From a virus, in the IMG/VR virus record IMGVR_UViG_3300035663_000123, positions 1 through 21,211 of that record: 21,211 bases of DNA; one strand, 5' to 3'. A program made the translations under genes and the position numbers. Under the pieces are notes generated by a model. That model had not been told where the DNA came from. It worked only from the letters and a program-made list of their open reading frames with translations, and searched no databases. Position 1 is the first letter of the stretch; every line of letters starts with the position of its first letter. Shown here piece after piece: positions 7,052 to 21,211 of this stretch.

Positions 7052-8059
7052 TCAATTTTTAATTTGTGACCATACACGTTTGCGAATCTCATTTTGTAGT
7101 GATTCTGGTAAATGAACGTAATCTAATTCTTCACTCATCTTAGCACCATTTCTAAATGCCCAATCGAAGAATTTTAGTACATCATTGCTTGCCTTTGTAT
7201 CTTTAGGCTCTTTGTACATAATAATAAAACTTGCTGTACTAATGGGCCAAGTATTTTTTCCTGATTGTTCAACAATACTTAATCCCATACCCGGAACACT
7301 AAACCAATCTGCACCAGCAGCAGCAGCAGCAAAAGCGGTGTCATCAGGATCCACGAAAACACCATCTTTGTTTTGCAATTTCATATATGTCATATTATTT
7401 TTCTTAACATATGCATATTCAACATAACCAATAGAACCTTTAATACGATTCACATTAGCTGCAACACCTTCATTACCTTTACCACCAACTGAACTTGCTG
7501 CGGGCCATTTCACAGCAGCACCACGCCCAACTTTCTCTTCCCATTCTTTACTTACGACAGTTAAGTAATCAGTAAAGTTAAATGTCGTTCCCGATCCATC
7601 TGCACGATGAACAACAGTGATTGCAGAATTTGGAAGATTCTTTCCGGGATTCAAATCTTTAATCTGAGGATCATTCCATCGAGTAATCGTACCCATAAAA
7701 ATTCGTGAAAGAACCACACCATTGATCTTCAATTCACCTGGGCTAAAATTATCTAGATTAATGATTGGTACTGTACCACCAATAATTGCAGGAAATTGTA
7801 TCTGCCCTCTTTTCTCTAGTTCATCACCTTTCACAGGAGCATCCGATGCACCAAATGTAACTGTACCAGAGTTGATTTGTCGAATGCCTCCTGAACTACC
7901 GATACTTTGATAATTTAAACTAACACCAGATTCTTTCTTATACGATTCAGCCCACTTCGCATAAATCGGATATGGAAATGTTGCACCAGCCCCAGTAATG
8001 ATTTGTGCATTCACTGACATTGAAAAAGTAGCAATCAATAAAAATAATAGTTTCTTCAT
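7052..8059 (-). CDS. pstS: Phosphate ABC transporter periplasmic substrate-binding protein PstS
   Basis: A full-length (335 aa) PstS. A signal peptide, MKKLLFLLIATFSMSVNA, is followed by the mature protein. Phosphate-binding positions are in place: ATFPYP (T27, F28), SIGSSGG (51-58), ASDAP (D73) and HRADGSGTT (R152, S156, G157, T158). The protein would be exported to the periplasm to bind inorganic phosphate for the host PstCAB transporter. No pstC, pstA or pstB is nearby, so it would work with host machinery. PstS is a known auxiliary gene of aquatic T4-like phages and may support phosphate supply during infection. The start at 8059 follows AAAGGA; an in-frame TTG at 8074 would only add charged residues before the signal peptide. 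The sequence looks proteobacterial, suggesting transfer from a past host. Confidence 0.95.
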   Translation of the reverse strand: MKKLLFLLIATFSMSVNAQIITGAGATFPYPIYAKWAESYKKESGVSLNYQSIGSSGGIRQINSGTVTFGASDAPVKGDELEKRGQIQFPAIIGGTVPIINLDNFSPGELKINGVVLSRIFMGTITRWNDPQIKDLNPGKNLPNSAITVVHRADGSGTTFNFTDYLTVVSKEWEEKVGRGAAVKWPAASSVGGKGNEGVAANVNRIKGSIGYVEYAYVKKNNMTYMKLQNKDGVFVDPDDTAFAAAAAGADWFSVPGMGLSIVEQSGKNTWPISTASFIIMYKEPKDTKASNDVLKFFDWAFRNGAKMSEELDYVHLPESLQNEIRKRVWSQIKN

Positions 8060-8077
8060 TTTTTTTCCTTTCAAAAA

Positions 8078-15363: not shown

Positions 15364-15794
15364 TGTATTTTCTCTGCTGCTTTATTGTGTACATCTACGA
15401 ATGCAGGAGGTATTTCACATTTATTATCAAATTTAACAACTTCGCGGTCAACGTACTGGATAATATCTTTACCTTTTTCTTTTATAACTTTCTGTTGAAC
15501 TACAACTTTTTCAACAATCTTAACTGTTTCAACTGCACCTTTTGCTTCTGCTTCAGCAAGTTTAGCTTCAACTTCTTTTACTTTTGCAAGCCACGATTCA
15601 TTGTTTGCTATTGAACCCGCCATATAAACACCAATGACAATAAAAATAACCGATACGATTTGTATCGGAGCTTTGTACATGTAAAGTGCGGGGATTGGAA
15701 TGAATTTAAGCAAATAGGTTATTAAGAAACCTATTACACCTATAAACAGTATTGCGTAGAATATCCAGTTAGGAAGCCACTCTAATATCCACAT
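15360..15794 (-). CDS. Inner-membrane spanin-like protein (Rz-like), two N-terminal hydrophobic segments
   Basis: Residues about 11-31 (IFYAILFIGVIGFLITYLLK) and 44-64 (IQIVSVIFIVIGVYMAGSIA) are hydrophobic. A charged coiled coil follows (WLAKVKEVEAKLAEAEAKGA and VEKVVVQQKVIKEKGKDIIQ), ending with KCEIPPAFVDVHNKAAEKIQ. The coiled coil, the downstream lipoprotein gene with an ATGA overlap, and the endolysin after that identify an inner spanin. Classical Rz has a single membrane helix. With two, the N-terminus would have to lie in the periplasm for the coiled coil to be periplasmic. It is coupled to the preceding gene by TAATG. Confidence 0.78.
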   Translation of the reverse strand: MWILEWLPNWIFYAILFIGVIGFLITYLLKFIPIPALYMYKAPIQIVSVIFIVIGVYMAGSIANNESWLAKVKEVEAKLAEAEAKGAVETVKIVEKVVVQQKVIKEKGKDIIQYVDREVVKFDNKCEIPPAFVDVHNKAAEKIQ

Positions 15795-16126
15795 TACCGC
15801 CCTCGACCATATCTAAGGTACATCATTGCGCCTGTCTGTTCATCTTCAAGTACAATGCCTTCTTTCCAGTTTTTATTTGCATATTCTGAAATCTCTTTTG
15901 CAATTACTGGATCACCTAGATACGATTCGAATCGTGCATACTTTCGTTTGAGCATTCTTGCCATTACGAAATTTTTTGTTGGAACTTTAAATACTCTAGA
16001 ACCTGCAAACTTCTTTTTAATTCCAGGTTCTGCTTGATTGGGTAGATTTGGATTAGGAACACCAATACCAGCAATCGCACCACCGGCGACTGCATTTGTT
16101 GGTACTGCATCTTCTTTAATCTTCAT
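15794..16126 (-). CDS. Conserved phage protein of unknown function (110 aa)
   Basis: The ATG at 16126 is preferred over an in-frame TTG at 16132; it still overlaps the 75-aa gene by 11 bases. The first 40 residues are Gly/Ala/Pro-rich and probably flexible (NAVAGGAIAGIGVPNPNLPN). The rest is a small folded domain: FAGSRVFKVPTKNFVMARML, KRKYARFESYLGD, then GIVLEDEQTGAMMYLRYGRG. The flexible N-terminus plus a K-x-R-Y-x-R-[FY] core resembles small conserved proteins beside structural genes in T4-like aquatic phages. No enzymatic motif is visible. Confidence 0.66.
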   Translation of the reverse strand: MKIKEDAVPTNAVAGGAIAGIGVPNPNLPNQAEPGIKKKFAGSRVFKVPTKNFVMARMLKRKYARFESYLGDPVIAKEISEYANKNWKEGIVLEDEQTGAMMYLRYGRGR

Positions 16127-16343
16127 TTGCAAACCTAAATGTTGTGTCTTTATTTCTTCTATTCATTGTATAGTTTGTTTGCAATCTAATTTCTGGATTT
16201 TGAAATGTCCAGCATTGCCCATTATCATCTAGAAACACCACCCATTCAATATGGTGTTCTTGACTTCTCTCTATCATAAAAAATGCCCATCCGCTTCCTT
16301 TTGGTGTCACCATCGGTATCGGTGGGTTCAACTGAATCATCAT
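16116..16343 (-). CDS. Conserved small phage protein of unknown function (75 aa)
   Basis: It begins MMIQLNPPIPMVTPKGSGWA, followed by FFMIERSQEHHIEWVVFLDD and GQCWTFQNPEIRLQTNYTMN. The N-P-P-I-P-x-x-T-P-K-G opening, the H-H-x-x-W-V-V-F-x-D-D-x-G-x-C-W-T-F centre and N-P-E-I-R are strongly reminiscent of a widespread short phage protein family with no assigned function. It is predicted as a small beta-sheet domain. The ATG at 16343 overlaps the previous stop as ATGA. Confidence 0.7.
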   Translation of the reverse strand: MMIQLNPPIPMVTPKGSGWAFFMIERSQEHHIEWVVFLDDNGQCWTFQNPEIRLQTNYTMNRRNKDTTFRFANED

Positions 16344-16735
16344 ATAATATTATTCCTCAATACTTCTGCTATTCTCATATCAACTGGAATATCCGAAGAG
16401 TGAATATCTCTTCCTTTTATTCCTTTTACTACATTCGGCATATTATTTAGAAATAACAAATACGTTTTTAACGCTGAATAATCATCTTCAATAATTTTAT
16501 AGAACAACATTCTTGTCGCAGGTTCAACTCCAAACACATTATATAAAACAATCAAATGATTTATTACAAGTCTCTCTTTTAACTCACCTTCTTTTCTATA
16601 CCTACGAAAAAGCCTCTTCAAATAATTGAACTTCTTCATGTCTTCTCTAAACTCACTCATTATGCAATTAGGTTTGTCATATGCTTTAATTGCATACATG
16701 ACAAAATTGTCACTTGTTAAATCATCAAAAGACAT
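16340..16735 (-). CDS. Conserved T4-like phage protein of unknown function (131 aa)
   Basis: A helical protein: FVMYAIKAYDKPNCIMSEFR, EDMKKFNYLKRLFRRYRKEG, ELKERLVINHLIVLYNVFGV, then EPATRMLFYKIIEDDYSALK and TYLLFLNNMP. The Y-D-x-P-x-C, M-K-x-F-x-Y-[IL]-K-R-L-F and L-x-x-R-x-x-x-N-H-[IL]-I-V-L-Y-N-V-F-G blocks are hallmarks of a protein conserved in many T4-like aquatic phages, which I know only as a family of unknown function. It is cytoplasmic, with no membrane segment. The start overlaps the preceding stop as TAATG. Confidence 0.75.
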   Translation of the reverse strand: MSFDDLTSDNFVMYAIKAYDKPNCIMSEFREDMKKFNYLKRLFRRYRKEGELKERLVINHLIVLYNVFGVEPATRMLFYKIIEDDYSALKTYLLFLNNMPNVVKGIKGRDIHSSDIPVDMRIAEVLRNNII

Positions 16736-17121
16736 TATTTCTCAGATTCGCCTTCGACTCCTGAATTTAGCATCTCTTCTGCACCTTCTTCATCAGTCAC
16801 TTCAGCGTAAAAATCGTAATAACCATCATCGGTTGGATAATACAGAATGTAAATATACTTATCTGTACCATCAATAGCTTCAACTATTTCTTCTCCTTCA
16901 GAACTTAAATCATATATTGGATGAAAATCTAAATTTTCAACCATGAGTATTTTTCTGACCAAAGTAATTCCAGTTTCTGGTGTGTAAACTGGATCTTCCA
17001 ATACAACATTCAACATCAGATTCAACTTTTCAACAACCGAAGAGTCTAATGAAGATGAATCTACCGGCACATCACCGGTAGATTGCTCATAATCTTCTTT
17101 AATAAAGTTTTTAAAATTCAT
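16735..17121 (-). CDS. Acidic phage protein of unknown function (128 aa)
   Basis: It begins MNFKNFIKEDYEQSTGDVPV, an opening (M-x-F-K-x-F-[IL]-x-E) common to proteins near the head genes of T4-like aquatic phages. The middle has VVLEDPVYTPETGITLVRKI and a beta-rich stretch, YIYILYYPTDDGYYDFYAEV, and the acidic C-terminus ends EMLNSGVEGESEK. It is strongly negative overall. A hairpin with a perfect 10-bp stem lies near the 5' end of the gene (17058-17084). The start overlaps the previous stop as TGATG. No function is recognised. Confidence 0.62.
   Translation of the reverse strand: MNFKNFIKEDYEQSTGDVPVDSSSLDSSVVEKLNLMLNVVLEDPVYTPETGITLVRKILMVENLDFHPIYDLSSEGEEIVEAIDGTDKYIYILYYPTDDGYYDFYAEVTDEEGAEEMLNSGVEGESEK
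17058..17084 (-). other. Perfect 10-bp inverted repeat near the start of the 128-aa gene
   Basis: On the minus strand AATCTACCGG, a 7-base spacer, and CCGGTAGATT form an uninterrupted 10-bp stem, 37 bases into the gene. No U-run follows, so it is not an intrinsic terminator. It could act as an RNA structure affecting translation or decay, or as a protein site, or be chance. Confidence 0.5.
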
Positions 17122-17743: not shown

Positions 17744-19192
17744 TTATACTTTTACGATTTGTGAAGAGAGTTCAGGTTCAGATTGAAAAGTTTCTGGCTT
17801 TTCTTTTTTATTATCTTTACCTTTTTTAGCTAAATCTTTTACCATACCTGCCGTCTTTGAAAGGCTTCTTTTAGCAGCAGTGTTCACTTTATCTTCAGCG
17901 TCTTCTGGCTCCATATTTTCTTTGATTCCAGCTTGTCTTTTCGCTGCGGCTTTAGCTAGTTCTTTAACCCTCTGCATAGGATCTTTTTTATTTTCTGAAG
18001 AAACTATTGTGGGATTCTTAAAAGGAACTTTTGGCTGACCAGATATGAAACGACCCTCATGTGCACCGGATGCTGTAGCTTGTTCGGTAGCCATTTTGAT
18101 ACCTTTTTGTCTACGAGCAATAATATTTTTAGCAAAACTTCCATATTCACCTTTTACATGAGGCTTTAATTCTTTAACTTCTGCTTTAGCCTTTTGAACA
18201 TAAGATTTTTTTGTTTCTTGACTGATTTCATCAAGTTGTTCAACTTCTTCTTTTTTCATTCTTTCACGCTTTGCAGCAGCAGTTTCTTTGCCAGATTTAG
18301 TGAAACCATATTTTGCATATTTGCCGCTTGCAAGATCATGAGCATAAGTTCCTGGTGCAGCCGGTGCTTTAATATTCTTTCTGGGTGTCACAATAATTTC
18401 ACTCTCTTTAATCTCAGCTTGCTTCAAAATGCCTTTCACTAAAGGAGCTTTTAATTGTTTGTGACGAGGAACGGAAATATGATGTTCAGCTTCAGAATGT
18501 GTGTATACATCATGGCTGCCTGATGATCTCGACAACTTCCATCCTTTTTTCTTCAAATGGGAATGAACTGCGCGAGTATCCATATTTGCACCAGGCATCT
18601 CATCGAGTTGTTCAACTTCTTCACTTACAGACTTCCAGCCACCACCTTTTGATTTGTACCACTTAGCAGCCCAACCATTTGCGTAAGCAGAAGGATACAC
18701 ATCAAATTTAGATTTAGCTAGTGCTTTTGCGCGGGACCACAATGCAGGATTTGTTGGTGCATTTTTTTCTTCGAGATATTCAACTTCTTCATTCATCGCA
18801 GATTTTGCTGCTTCAATAGAAGTGTAATATTTTTGTTTTTTGCCATTTTTATATAACGCAAATGCATCTTCACCATATTTTTCAATATGATTTTCACCTT
18901 TTTTGAATACAACTTCACCACCCGACTCTTTAATGTATTCTTCGTTCATTTCAGCAGTCATATAGTTTGCAACTGTAGAAATATAATCTTCAGCTAAAGT
19001 AATCTTAGACTGGCACCATTCAGGCAAATTAGTGTTTGGCTCTAGCATATCATGAAGACGTTGAGCATTATGCATGATACTACGAAGATCGGACATAGCC
19101 ATATCACCTTCGTAGTCGTACTCGCCTCTATCTTCATCCTTGGATTCGGTGATGCCTCTCACCGAATCTGCAACTTTCGAAAATTTTTTCAT
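17744..19192 (-). CDS. Modular Lys/Glu-rich phage protein with embedded HicA-like domain (482 aa)
   Basis: A string of short modules rather than one fold. In order: a helical unit SDLRSIMHNAQRLHDMLEPN...LPEWCQSKITLAEDYI (34-72); a strand-rich AFALYKNGKKQKYYTSIEAA unit (about 94-133); a conserved W-x-R-A-K-A unit, LWSRAKALAKSKFDVYPSAY then ANGWAAKWYKSKGGGW (151-186); a HicA-like unit (204-261); a GTYAHDLASGKYAKYGFTKS unit (281-300); a helical ISQETKKSYVQKAK...RRQKGIKMATEQ unit (323-371); and a basic tail. The motif E-E-V-E-Q-L-D-E stands at 191-198 and 315-322 and a variant at 135-142, between modules. The preceding gene has the same design. The L-D-E ends fit the hydrophobic-x-Glu rule of T4 prohead protease sites, so it may be a head-packaged protein processed into pieces. 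That is inference. It starts two bases after the 468-aa gene. Confidence 0.68.
   Translation of the reverse strand: MKKFSKVADSVRGITESKDEDRGEYDYEGDMAMSDLRSIMHNAQRLHDMLEPNTNLPEWCQSKITLAEDYISTVANYMTAEMNEEYIKESGGEVVFKKGENHIEKYGEDAFALYKNGKKQKYYTSIEAAKSAMNEEVEYLEEKNAPTNPALWSRAKALAKSKFDVYPSAYANGWAAKWYKSKGGGWKSVSEEVEQLDEMPGANMDTRAVHSHLKKKGWKLSRSSGSHDVYTHSEAEHHISVPRHKQLKAPLVKGILKQAEIKESEIIVTPRKNIKAPAAPGTYAHDLASGKYAKYGFTKSGKETAAAKRERMKKEEVEQLDEISQETKKSYVQKAKAEVKELKPHVKGEYGSFAKNIIARRQKGIKMATEQATASGAHEGRFISGQPKVPFKNPTIVSSENKKDPMQRVKELAKAAAKRQAGIKENMEPEDAEDKVNTAAKRSLSKTAGMVKDLAKKGKDNKKEKPETFQSEPELSSQIVKV
18227..18250 (-). repeat. Linker repeat E-E-V-E-Q-L-D-E (residues 315-322 of the 482-aa protein)
   Basis: One copy of a 24-base, 8-residue direct repeat found four times in near-identical form across the two modular genes. 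It is followed here by I-S-Q-E-T, the start of a helical module. Confidence 0.75.
18410..18583 (-). other. HicA/YcfA-like mRNA-interferase domain inside the 482-aa protein
   Basis: Residues 204-261 contain the HicA pattern nearly complete: a first helix and strand in LKKKGWKLSRSSGSHDVYTH (213-232), with the G-S-H signature whose histidine (H227) is the catalytic residue in HicA; then HHISVPRHKQLKAP (237-250), the V-P-x-H strand-turn; then LVKGILKQAEI (251-261), the final helix that in HicA reads x-G-T-[LV]-x-x-I-L-[KR]-Q-A-[GE]-[IL]. Free HicA is about 60-80 aa, so the module is full length. A linker motif precedes it and no HicB antitoxin gene is seen in the window. Confidence 0.72.
18599..18622 (-). 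repeat. Linker repeat E-E-V-E-Q-L-D-E (residues 191-198 of the 482-aa protein)
   Basis: Second copy in this gene, directly before the HicA-like module (next residues M-P-G-A-N-M). Cutting after the final Glu would free the N-terminus of that module. Confidence 0.75.
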
Positions 19193-19194
19193 AC

Positions 19195-20601
19195 TTAGTC
19201 CTTCTTAGCCATTTTGGTAGCAGTAGCGTACATAACTTCTTTTGCTCTTTCACCATAACGCTGTTTGAATCCTTCAAGCCCCTTTTTCATAGACTTGACA
19301 TATTTCTCGCGCTTTTCCATTTCACCTGAAGATAATGTGCGCTCATCAATTTGTTCGACTTCTTCTTTATTTAATTTACCGGTGCCTCTTACGACACCTC
19401 TGGAACCAGCACCAATACCCATTTTTTTAGTAGCTAATTCCATACCTGACCTTCTTTTGGCAAATCTAGCTTGATGAGGATCTCTCATTTTCTGGATTTC
19501 ATCGGAAGCTTTTGAGAGAGCCTTGTGTACGGCAGGTGCGTTTGTTTTGGAAATAGGATTAGCACCTCTCATTCCTGGAGCACCCTTATTAGTATTTGCC
19601 ATTAAACGTTTTACTTTTTGATGTTCTATACCTAACTTATTATCTTTGTCAAAGGCATCATACTGATCCTTTGCAGCAGCCTTTTTATAACGACTTAAAA
19701 GGTTTTTAGATAATTCATCTAATTGTTGATACTCTTCAGTTTGCATGAAGTTTTCGATATCTTCAATAGTAAATGTTTGTTCAACCGATTCTTGTTTTAC
19801 AGCCTGAACTGCGGGCTTTGCAACTTCAGCTTTTGCTTTACCCTGAGATTTATCTTGTGCTTTCTTGATTTCAGCATTGAACTCATCTTGTGAAGCTTCT
19901 TCTTTGATTGGATGAAAACCCATCTCTGCATGTCTTTTTCTATTTTCTGGAGTATCAACGATAACTTTTTCTCTTCCAGATGTCTTATGAACAAGCATAA
20001 CTGTTTTTTGTTTTTTCTTTACTGGACCTAAATCATCACTCTCGGCAATTTCAACTTCTTCTTTTTTCAAACCACCGCGAGCTTCAGCCGATTTAAGCAT
20101 TGCGATACGATCACGATAACCACCGGTCCCTGACTTCATGTGCTTAGAGGCTTCCATCTCACCTTTAGTAGGATTCTTGATGTGCTTCATTGTAGTTTTA
20201 GCTTGATGACTTTGTGCTTCATCAACCTGCTCAACTTCTTCTTTCTTCATTCCAGGTTCTTTTTGTGGTGCGCTCCCTGCTTTACCTTTAACTAAAGTAC
20301 CTTTAGCTTGACGAGCTAGGAATTTAGCAGCACGTTCATCATGACCAGGCATCAAACTTGTCATTGGAACTTTACCTTCAGGAGCCTTACGTTCATTTTC
20401 TGGATTGTCATAGCCTTTACCTTTGACAACTGCTTCCTTAACTGGCTTATGACCAGCACGAAGTTTGGATAGATCGCCAGCATCAATCTTGTGTTTTGGT
20501 TCACTCATCTTAGCAATAGCTTTCTGTTTTGATGAAAGTTCTGCTTCCATGACTTGTTTTACTGCCTCTGCTACTGATTTTAGAATCTTATCGTTATACA
20601 T
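19195..20601 (-). CDS. Modular Lys/Glu-rich phage protein (468 aa)
   Basis: Same architecture as the next gene. Modules in order: an N-terminal helix and ELSSKQKAIAKMSEPKHKID (21-40); NPENERKAPEGKVPMTSLMP with GHDERAAKFLARQAKG (67-101); SHQAKTTMKHIKNPTKGEME with GYRDRIAMLKSAEARGGLK (131-179); a strand-rich TVMLVHKTSGREKVIVDTPE unit (200-219); a helical LDELSKNLLSRYKKAAAKDQ unit (294-313) reaching RRSGMELATKKM (383-394); and SSGEMEKREKYVKSMKKGLE with RYGERAKEVMYATATKMAKK (424-467). E-E-V-E-Q-[VI]-D-E stands at 121-128 and 413-420, with variants at 181-187 and 291-296. No signal peptide or membrane segment. Many modules recur in proteins of aquatic T4-like phages, but none has a function I can name. 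AAGGGG lies before the ATG. A role as a head-internal or structural protein is inferred. Confidence 0.66.
   Translation of the reverse strand: MYNDKILKSVAEAVKQVMEAELSSKQKAIAKMSEPKHKIDAGDLSKLRAGHKPVKEAVVKGKGYDNPENERKAPEGKVPMTSLMPGHDERAAKFLARQAKGTLVKGKAGSAPQKEPGMKKEEVEQVDEAQSHQAKTTMKHIKNPTKGEMEASKHMKSGTGGYRDRIAMLKSAEARGGLKKEEVEIAESDDLGPVKKKQKTVMLVHKTSGREKVIVDTPENRKRHAEMGFHPIKEEASQDEFNAEIKKAQDKSQGKAKAEVAKPAVQAVKQESVEQTFTIEDIENFMQTEEYQQLDELSKNLLSRYKKAAAKDQYDAFDKDNKLGIEHQKVKRLMANTNKGAPGMRGANPISKTNAPAVHKALSKASDEIQKMRDPHQARFAKRRSGMELATKKMGIGAGSRGVVRGTGKLNKEEVEQIDERTLSSGEMEKREKYVKSMKKGLEGFKQRYGERAKEVMYATATKMAKKD
19342..19365 (-). repeat. Linker repeat E-E-V-E-Q-I-D-E (residues 413-420 of the 468-aa protein)
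   Basis: Copy of the 8-residue linker that precedes the C-terminal helical module. Codon choices differ from the other copies, pointing to selection on the peptide rather than a recent DNA duplication. Confidence 0.72.
20218..20241 (-). repeat. Linker repeat E-E-V-E-Q-V-D-E (residues 121-128 of the 468-aa protein)
   Basis: First copy of the linker in transcription order. It is followed by A-Q-S-H-Q, giving V-D-E|A, the junction closest to the T4 prohead-protease rule of a small residue after Glu. Confidence 0.72.
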
Positions 20602-20621: not shown

Positions 20622-21211
20622 TTATCTAGTAACTTCTTCCCAGTCCATAGAACCATATATGTCTGCACCATTGGAACTTGCGGCTGCGACTAAGGTTAAT
20701 TCATATGGAGTGTTTGTCAAACCGTTTCTTTCTAACTGAAATTTGAATAATGCTTCTTTTAGAATATCAATTGGTGCTGATGCTTGATTAGTTGATGCAG
20801 TAAAACCTGAAGCTAAAACTCTACCACCAGTAACCGATCCACCATCTATCTTATATTCTACCGCAGAATTATCTCCAGCACTCACCCATGTTCCACCACC
20901 AGAGGTATTCGCACCTGCTCTTACTTGCCAATTGTAATATGCATTTGAAATTCCCAAAATTGATAATGCTGTTAAAATAACAATCGCATCCAAACGATTA
21001 GGTGTTGTTTTTAATCTTATTGAAATAACAGGATAATATGTTCCTGCTGTGGGCAAATCTACTGGTGATGTAATTGGTACTTGAACTGCTTGTTGTGAGC
21101 CAAACAATTCATATCCTCCTTCAGACATTATAGAGGAACAAATCTGACTCAGTGTTGAATTACTTGTGGTTATACCTGTATTTTTTATTTCGATTCTTAA
21201 AGGTAATGATG
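20622..21211 (-). CDS. Virion-type protein of T4-like phages (partial, N-terminus off the window)
   Basis: An ATG at 21128 could start a 168-residue protein, but it has no Shine-Dalgarno. The frame stays open to the right edge, encoding LPLRIEIKNTGITTSNSTLS then QICSSIMSEGGYE, and I judge this upstream part genuine. The -R-x-E-I-x-N-T-G... and Q-I-C-S-[ST]-[IV]-x-S-E-G-G-Y motifs belong to a beta-rich protein frequent in aquatic phages. That makes the Met internal. Later stretches (TYYPVISIRLKTTPNRLDAI, GGTWVSAGDNSAVEYKIDGG, LVAAASSNGADIYGSMDWEE) fit the same family. The gene ends with VTR just before the 468-aa gene. I take it as a virion structural protein; which part of the particle is unknown. 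Confidence 0.72.
   Translation of the reverse strand, partial: SLPLRIEIKNTGITTSNSTLSQICSSIMSEGGYELFGSQQAVQVPITSPVDLPTAGTYYPVISIRLKTTPNRLDAIVILTALSILGISNAYYNWQVRAGANTSGGGTWVSAGDNSAVEYKIDGGSVTGGRVLASGFTASTNQASAPIDILKEALFKFQLERNGLTNTPYELTLVAAASSNGADIYGSMDWEEVTR

Follow-up and report, generated by a model that had tools for sequence, protein, structure and literature searches.

The closest described counterparts of the protein analysed here are (i) the internal proteins of phage T4 (IPI, IPII, IPIII and Alt), (ii) the HicA toxins (PF07927), (iii) the polyvalent proteins of phages, and (iv) the T4-GC 119 family and related proteins (S-SM2_109, S-BM3, S-SCSM1_29, S-CREM2 gp137 and gp160). According to the available text of PMC9026906, the T4 prohead protease gp21 cleaves after L/I-X-E, and the N-terminal 10 residues of IPIII are enough for targeting to the head; there and in PMC5694885, each T4 internal protein is described with one mature part. 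IPII and IPIII start with MKTYQEFIAEA and IPI with MKTFKEFTSTTTPVSTITEA (NC_000866). A survey of 2024 distinguishes 14 context classes of HicA, including bicistronic hicAB with an example from a cyanobacterial phage, and also models the HicA of a cyanobacterial phage; in the available text, a phage mosaic protein is none among the 14 classes (PMC10865869). Polyvalent proteins are multidomain phage proteins, some of them predicted to be packaged and injected, and the main text of the accessible article on them names HicA 0 times (PMC5512222). T4-GC 119 is called hypothetical in the available part of PMC3037559, despite three cyanophage proteomes. No published account of a HicA toxin module in phage head cargo was found in the accessible portion of the open-access literature.

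The window, i.e., the whole stretch of 21,211 nucleotides that was analysed, encodes a 482-aa mosaic protein with an internal HicA domain (Table 1). Likeness to the T4 internal proteins lies in the capsid-targeting-sequence-like (CTS-like) leader of its relatives, in [LI]xE sites and in the gp21 and gp23 genes of related phages; the mosaic proteins differ from them by several shuffled modules, by a site at many of the junctions and by HicA as one of the modules. Profile, fold, active-site signature and the size after predicted cleavage are shared with HicA toxins, whereas here the domain sits as a module inside a virion-type mosaic protein and HicB was not found. Like a polyvalent protein, the 482-aa protein combines several domains in one phage polypeptide; in contrast to polyvalent proteins, neither a peptidase nor an ADP-ribosyltransferase is among the 12 Pfam families of 116 mosaic proteins (the linker motif occurs in 146 non-redundant ORFs, among them a few gp22-like or other proteins; 116 were scanned). 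The T4-GC 119 family and related proteins have modules in common with the mosaic family, but no HicA module was seen in them. On the evidence given below, the 482-aa protein is probably head cargo, and the explanation as a whole, i.e., head cargo of a T4-like phage that is cut by gp21 and frees an injected HicA, is modestly favoured.

Identification of the HicA domain

The sequence-only reading had located a complete HicA-like fold at residues 204-261 of the 482-aa ORF, which indeed correspond to 18583-18410 on the minus strand. Profile and fold confirm the HicA domain; as a unit, the module is somewhat larger than had been proposed and comprises residues 199-263 (Table 1). The ORF matches the HicA_toxin family PF07927 over aa 209-261 (profile positions 4-58 of 58, E 5.5e-13, 49.2 bits) and a 60-aa piece alone reaches 54 bits (E 1.8e-14), the cut-off being 27 bits; the region also matches PHROG 353, 'toxin' (E 2.1e-14). 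An AlphaFold2 model computed from 29 module sequences (mean pLDDT 83.6) displays the order helix-strand-strand-strand-helix with a pLDDT of ~90 over the core. The best seven Foldseek matches in the PDB comprise five HicA/HicAB entries, one Streptococcus toxin-antitoxin complex and one Thermus hypothetical protein (1whz), with the top match 6g26_E (TM 0.75, E 3.8e-4) being the only one of the seven with E <0.001. Among predicted viral structures (BFVD), a 71-aa 'Toxin' is the best match (E 5.3e-4), followed by several small HicA-like phage proteins, including one from S-RIM8. With the sequence alone (phmmer), HicA chains were matched weakly (best E 0.048). Scans against NCBIfam and PADLOC were uninformative (TraE_Enteroc 14.6 bits, cut-off 100; a CARF model with E 0.0022), and an HHH_3 match in the Pfam scan stayed below its cut-off (14.9 vs 27 bits).

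H227 stands in the context G-S-H-D-V, and the histidine of G-x-H is presumably the catalytic residue of HicA. The domain has the PF07927 score, the α-β-β-β-α dsRBD-like fold and the G-x-H signature of the family; since neither the free form of ~60-85 aa nor a HicB partner was found, the domain sitting inside the 482-aa ORF and measuring 65 aa only if cut as predicted, it is not classed as a member of a HicAB toxin-antitoxin system. In agreement with the sequence-only reading, no hicB was found in the window: PF15919 and PF05534 remained unmatched and nothing HicB-like lies beside the HicA gene. Each of these two HicB families was matched in 0 of 12 records including the window, which are mostly fragments; the same families were matched in 4/14 and 1/14 control genomes, respectively.

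Conservation and spread of the module

A search of viral contigs with the HicA module by itself yielded 50 loci, and there are 42 distinct ORFs bearing the module; 12 records were checked, and every one has exactly one HicA match. The position of the module start within its protein varies from residue 1 to ~300, and the stretches next to the module group into 17 clusters on the upstream side (39 stretches) and 14 on the downstream side (42 stretches). In one 155-aa protein (L125:5001-5465) the order is reversed, the HicA module coming first and a CTS-like SFSQFIAEA after it. A HicA module of this kind has been seen neither in a virion nor in an isolate; among 50,697 phage records, three matched the module at 32-46 % identity. 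With respect to a cellular origin of this HicA subtype, genome contigs scanned with alignment A1 gave 57 pattern matches and 0 confirmed relatives.

The G-x-H-D signature is kept in all 35 distinct module copies, which were gathered by similarity, and 20 of the 69 columns of alignment A1 (29 copies) are invariant, including R25, G28, H30, D31, P45, R46, H47 and Q49-L54. The median dN/dS is 0.185, with none above 0.391, for the 380 of 861 pairs with dS of 0.1-1.5 (481 pairs outside this range were dropped). The module is thus under purifying selection, and signature and selection together suit a working domain, be it an RNase or an RNA-binding one.

The predicted free HicA product has 65 aa and, computed from the window sequence, a pI of 10.0; the two C-terminal pieces of the 482-aa protein have pI values of 9.7 and 9.9, and the EYD-bearing piece one of 4.6. 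Such basic pieces would also be compatible with a packaged HicA fold that serves as nucleic-acid-binding bead, condensing DNA or filling the head without any RNase activity, all the more as HicA has a dsRNA-binding-type fold (available text of PMC10865869) and lysines of T4 internal proteins touch the packaged DNA (available text of PMC3012670). A bead, however, has no need for a signature without exception or for that many invariant columns, and is considered rather unlikely. The intact active-site residues would likewise not be required if the injected HicA-like protein were a decoy that binds host HicB or other defence parts and thereby blocks toxin-antitoxin defence; we regard this as improbable, even though HicA loci have been proposed to act in anti-phage defence (PMC10865869, as far as available) and the T4 protein IPI, once injected, inhibits a restriction enzyme (PMC3012670, as far as available).

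Mosaic organisation of the 482-aa protein

At least 548 relatives of the 482-aa protein were found in viral contigs, 80 of which were kept. Ten mosaic loci that were compared contain the same modules in different orders. HicA is one movable module within this mosaic family of T4-like phages. Other modules of the 482-aa protein are related to cyanophage proteins, i.e., the KNxPTNP module to the T4-GC 119 protein of S-BM3 (76 % identity over 55 aa) and the EYDYEGDM module to a protein of cyanophage S-H9-1 (66 % over 58 aa). In the full-length model (mean pLDDT 64.5), low confidence is seen at residues 1-22, 133-142, 189-201 and from 266 onwards; these stretches hold the [LI]xE sites at 16, 142 and 198 and adjoin the site at 263. 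The linker that the sequence-only reading had noticed ahead of the HicA domain is EEVEQLDE, and its DNA recurs in the window, namely at 18228-18250, at 18600-18622 and at two places of the sister gene (Table 1), with 1-4 differences in 23 bases, as retrieved with a search pattern built from those same linkers. The repeated linker DNA could provide a route for recombination of modules.

Table 1 Features of the mosaic-protein locus in the window (coordinates are window positions)
Feature	Position	Strand	Evidence or remark
482-aa mosaic protein with HicA	17744..19192	-	ORF list, relatives, confident blocks split by low-confidence stretches in model
N-terminal leader MKKFSKVADSVRGITE, ITE site at 16, possible capsid-targeting sequence	19145..19192	-	
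EYDYEGDM module, residues ~21-85, acidic	18938..19132	-	no [LI]xE exactly at head
Linker EEVEYLEE, residues 135-142	18767..18790	-	
KNxPTNP...YPSAYANGWAAKWY module, residues 143-190	18623..18766	-	PHROG 27331 over 152-182
Linker EEVEQLDE, residues 191-198, predicted gp21-type site before HicA	18599..18622	-	
HicA module, residues 199-263	18404..18598	-	Pfam, alignment A1, fold, flanking sites
H227 codon (His of G-x-H-D)	18512..18514	-	
IKE, residues 261-263, predicted site at C-terminal end of HicA	18404..18412	-	
Linker EEVEQLDE, residues 315-322	18227..18250	-	inside confidently predicted helix
Sister mosaic protein, 468 aa, same linker type	19195..20601	-	linker DNA at 19343-19365, 20219-20241
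128-aa protein	16735..17121	-	start MNFKNFIKED looks like targeting leader on visual comparison; no family matched
Virion structural protein (PHROG 1645)	20622..21209	-	truncated by record end

The 482-aa protein had also been labelled late-type, which agrees with its neighbours. A search for a T4-type late promoter gave no evidence of one, as the sequence TATAAATA occurs twice in the window (2.12 expected by chance) and not before the mosaic genes; therefore the label derives from the neighbouring genes. Counts of promoter-like and terminator-like sequences in the window equal chance. In a 1431-aa mosaic protein of another contig (L005:5453-9745), an intein-like insert lies within a conserved YPSAYANGW module (Intein_splicing 20.1 bits, below the cut-off of 35.8).

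Predicted processing sites at module junctions

Module starts were defined solely by residues inside the module, with heads picked after inspection of the proteins, and the junction counts treat related sequences as separate. On this basis, [LI]xE ends exactly at the start of HicA in 30 of 31 contexts. The same exact register is found at the heads KNxPTNP (26/26), GRPSQ (18/18), S..TL..Y (34/38), RxLTxxE (24/26) and S..T..SY (1/1), and in case of DUF6321 the triplet ends one residue before the head in 16 of 18; heads without exact [LI]xE are EYD.EGDM (0/39, one within three residues) and EEPTNDE (0/11). The background frequency of the triplet is 941 in 76,726 positions (1.2 %). In a second count, an upstream [LI]xE site is present in 38 of 40 HicA contexts, and in 31 of 40 a further site would free a HicA piece of at most 80 aa, as compared to a fraction of 0.230 for random starts (this second count covers contexts in which at least 95 residues follow the module start). 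The linkers are E-rich and the site pattern is short, both of which speak against cleavage.

At the sequence level, the 482-aa protein does have gp21-type [LI]-x-E processing sites, and its HicA module is flanked by LDE198 and IKE263. Of nine [LI]xE triplets altogether, three (at 58, 68 and 322) fall within predicted helices. A triplet by itself is therefore no sufficient guide to cutting, and cleavage at the 315-322 linker is less sure because this linker is part of a confidently predicted helix. The linker ends nevertheless match the cleavage rule of gp21 and are regarded as predicted sites.

The repeated linker DNA together with the shuffling of HicA neighbours also fits a protein that acts in the infected cell uncut and unpackaged, its EEVEQLDE linkers being spacers or places of recombination. 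This is very improbable in view of the exact [LI]xE register at unrelated heads, the CTS-like leaders and the family members reported in virions (both described below). Linkers may serve recombination and cleavage both.

Leader sequences and head genes of related phages

In two HicA proteins the N-terminal leader (MKSFTQFINEEVEILDE in L095, MKTFKAFISEEVELLDE in L094) is followed by MPGAN, i.e., by HicA directly, so that some HicA proteins seem to carry a T4-like capsid-targeting leader, which is clear in these two cases. A CTS-like pattern occurs at the start of 26 of 194 mosaic ORFs vs 18 of 1262 other ORFs, with a p-value (4e-13) that is overstated because related sequences are counted separately and the background ORFs include non-genes; in addition, a DUF6321 protein of the same type is present among the 18 'other' ORFs in at least two copies. 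The leader of the 482-aa protein itself is IPI-like by eye and does not fit the CTS pattern.

Among 14 records with mosaic proteins, gp21 (PF03420) was matched in 10 and gp23 (PF07068) in 11; all four records that lack a gp21 match are shorter (57-82 kb) than the other ten. Searches for gp21 and gp23 in the window fragment gave no match, nor did any control genome match, and both were not found in a 57-kb near-twin of the window (G001), which matches 12.3 kb of the window at 97.6 % and the remaining 9.0 kb at 85 %. The N-terminus of gp23 is legible in 9 of the 11 loci, and in each of them an L-x-E followed by A or T precedes the conserved part; this cut site is a presumed one, because other [LI]xE triplets lie nearer the start. 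The resemblance of a window ORF (15794-16132) to the gp23 N-arm falls short of significance (45 % over 20 aa, E 0.16), and this candidate was rejected.

In two small proteins (L029:12050-12412 and L019:12266-12628), the residues directly after a CTS-like leader align to the gp23 N-arm (E 6e-13 and 1e-7), and in this alignment the leader end coincides with the presumed gp23 site. S-CREM2 gp160 (L159:21843-22736) likewise has a copy of the gp23 N-arm near its N-terminus (E 8e-8). All three are small head-type proteins. A further protein of 146 aa (L134:662-1099), encoded just before gp21, carries the linker motif EEIEILDE ahead of a basic tail, in the place that core proteins occupy in T4.

Family members in virions

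In CsCl-purified virions of S-CREM2, gp160 (7 unique peptides, 13.1 % coverage), gp137 (4 unique peptides, 4.1 % coverage) and gp154 (3 peptides) were detected, according to the available text of PMC10665884. Gp160 has modules in common with L043:5716-6735 (53 % over 190 aa, E 7e-57) and with 5 of the 42 HicA-bearing ORFs (33 % over 156 aa in the best case, E 8e-12). With the 482-aa protein of the window itself, the match is short (42 % over 31 aa, E 5e-4). Gp137 matches 4 of the 42 (best L094, 40 % over 87 aa, E 1e-15). Gp154 starts with MKNFSSFLTEA and shares 36 % over 194 aa with the first part of a G001 protein. S-SCSM1_29, whose record carries the label 'virion protein', matches 12 of the 42 HicA-bearing ORFs. 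This label is presumably based on the mass spectrometry of S-SCSM1, for which 45 virion proteins are reported in the accessible text of PMC9602691, together with the caution that some proteins may stay in suspension after CsCl purification. In S-SM2 the family member (T4-GC 119) is encoded between the two terminase genes, and in S-BM3 one is encoded just after the small subunit.

Proposed function

The sequence-only reading had suggested a cargo toxin kept inactive in the precursor or capsid. Its head-cargo part gains from the junction sites, the leaders of relatives, gp21 and gp23 in related phages and the reported virion members; cleavage and packaging of the 482-aa protein, latency of the precursor, injection and a toxic RNase activity are what we infer in addition. 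HicA would accordingly be described here as part of predicted head cargo, with packaging like that of a T4 internal protein and with the modelled fold and the active site of HicA.

As envisaged, the 482-aa mosaic precursor would enter the prohead core, where gp21 would cut at [LI]-x-E in the acidic linkers and release a basic HicA of ~65 residues, the ordinary size of free HicA. The freed HicA would stay with the packaged DNA, enter the host with it and most likely bind and cut host mRNA early in infection, with no HicB found in the phage records to restrain it. Action as an mRNase in the host is, taken by itself, a plausible proposition of slightly less than even standing. If true, it would be capsid maturation, and not an antitoxin, that governs a toxin fold. 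Injected head cargo would then be a common role, open to testing, for many 'hypothetical' mosaic proteins that T4-like phages of marine and fresh waters encode, and one sequence rule would predict their mature products.

Gene neighbourhood

Upstream of its two mosaic genes, G001 encodes proteins of 902, 121 and 438 aa. The 902-aa protein (L163:2891-5596) starts with MKFKDFLAE and matches Zeta_toxin (40.3 bits, cut-off 22.3), and the 121-aa protein combines the leader MKRYKDFIAE with DUF6321. The gene order in L095 is as in G001, with the HicA module in a small leader-bearing protein and a Zeta_toxin match above cut-off in L095:2212-4953 (46.8 bits). The ~900-aa proteins of G001 and L095 thus possess a CTS-like leader, a Zeta_toxin P-loop domain and, further on, a mosaic module; they also contain a cytidylyltransferase-like domain, above cut-off only in G001. 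In another phage, a 243-aa protein (L107:275-1003) encoded 3.6 kb before the HicA gene matches RelA_SpoT just under the cut-off (26 vs 27 bits).

This neighbourhood suggests a payload of effectors. One may speculate that an aquatic lineage of T4-like phages carries in its head toxin-antitoxin-type effectors (HicA, the Zeta-toxin-type P-loop protein of the G001 cluster, and the RelA/SpoT-like protein of the other phage), which would be shuffled or leader-tagged, released by the protease and injected, thereby shutting off mRNA, cell wall or nucleotide metabolism of the host ahead of phage gene expression, with capsid maturation in place of an antitoxin; as a joint claim, this is tentative and on the whole doubtful.

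Elsewhere in the window, the ORF at 7052-8074 encodes a PstS-like periplasmic binding protein (PBP_like_2), near which genes of the nrdA, nrdB and thyX type are recognized by eye, as in marine T4-like phages.
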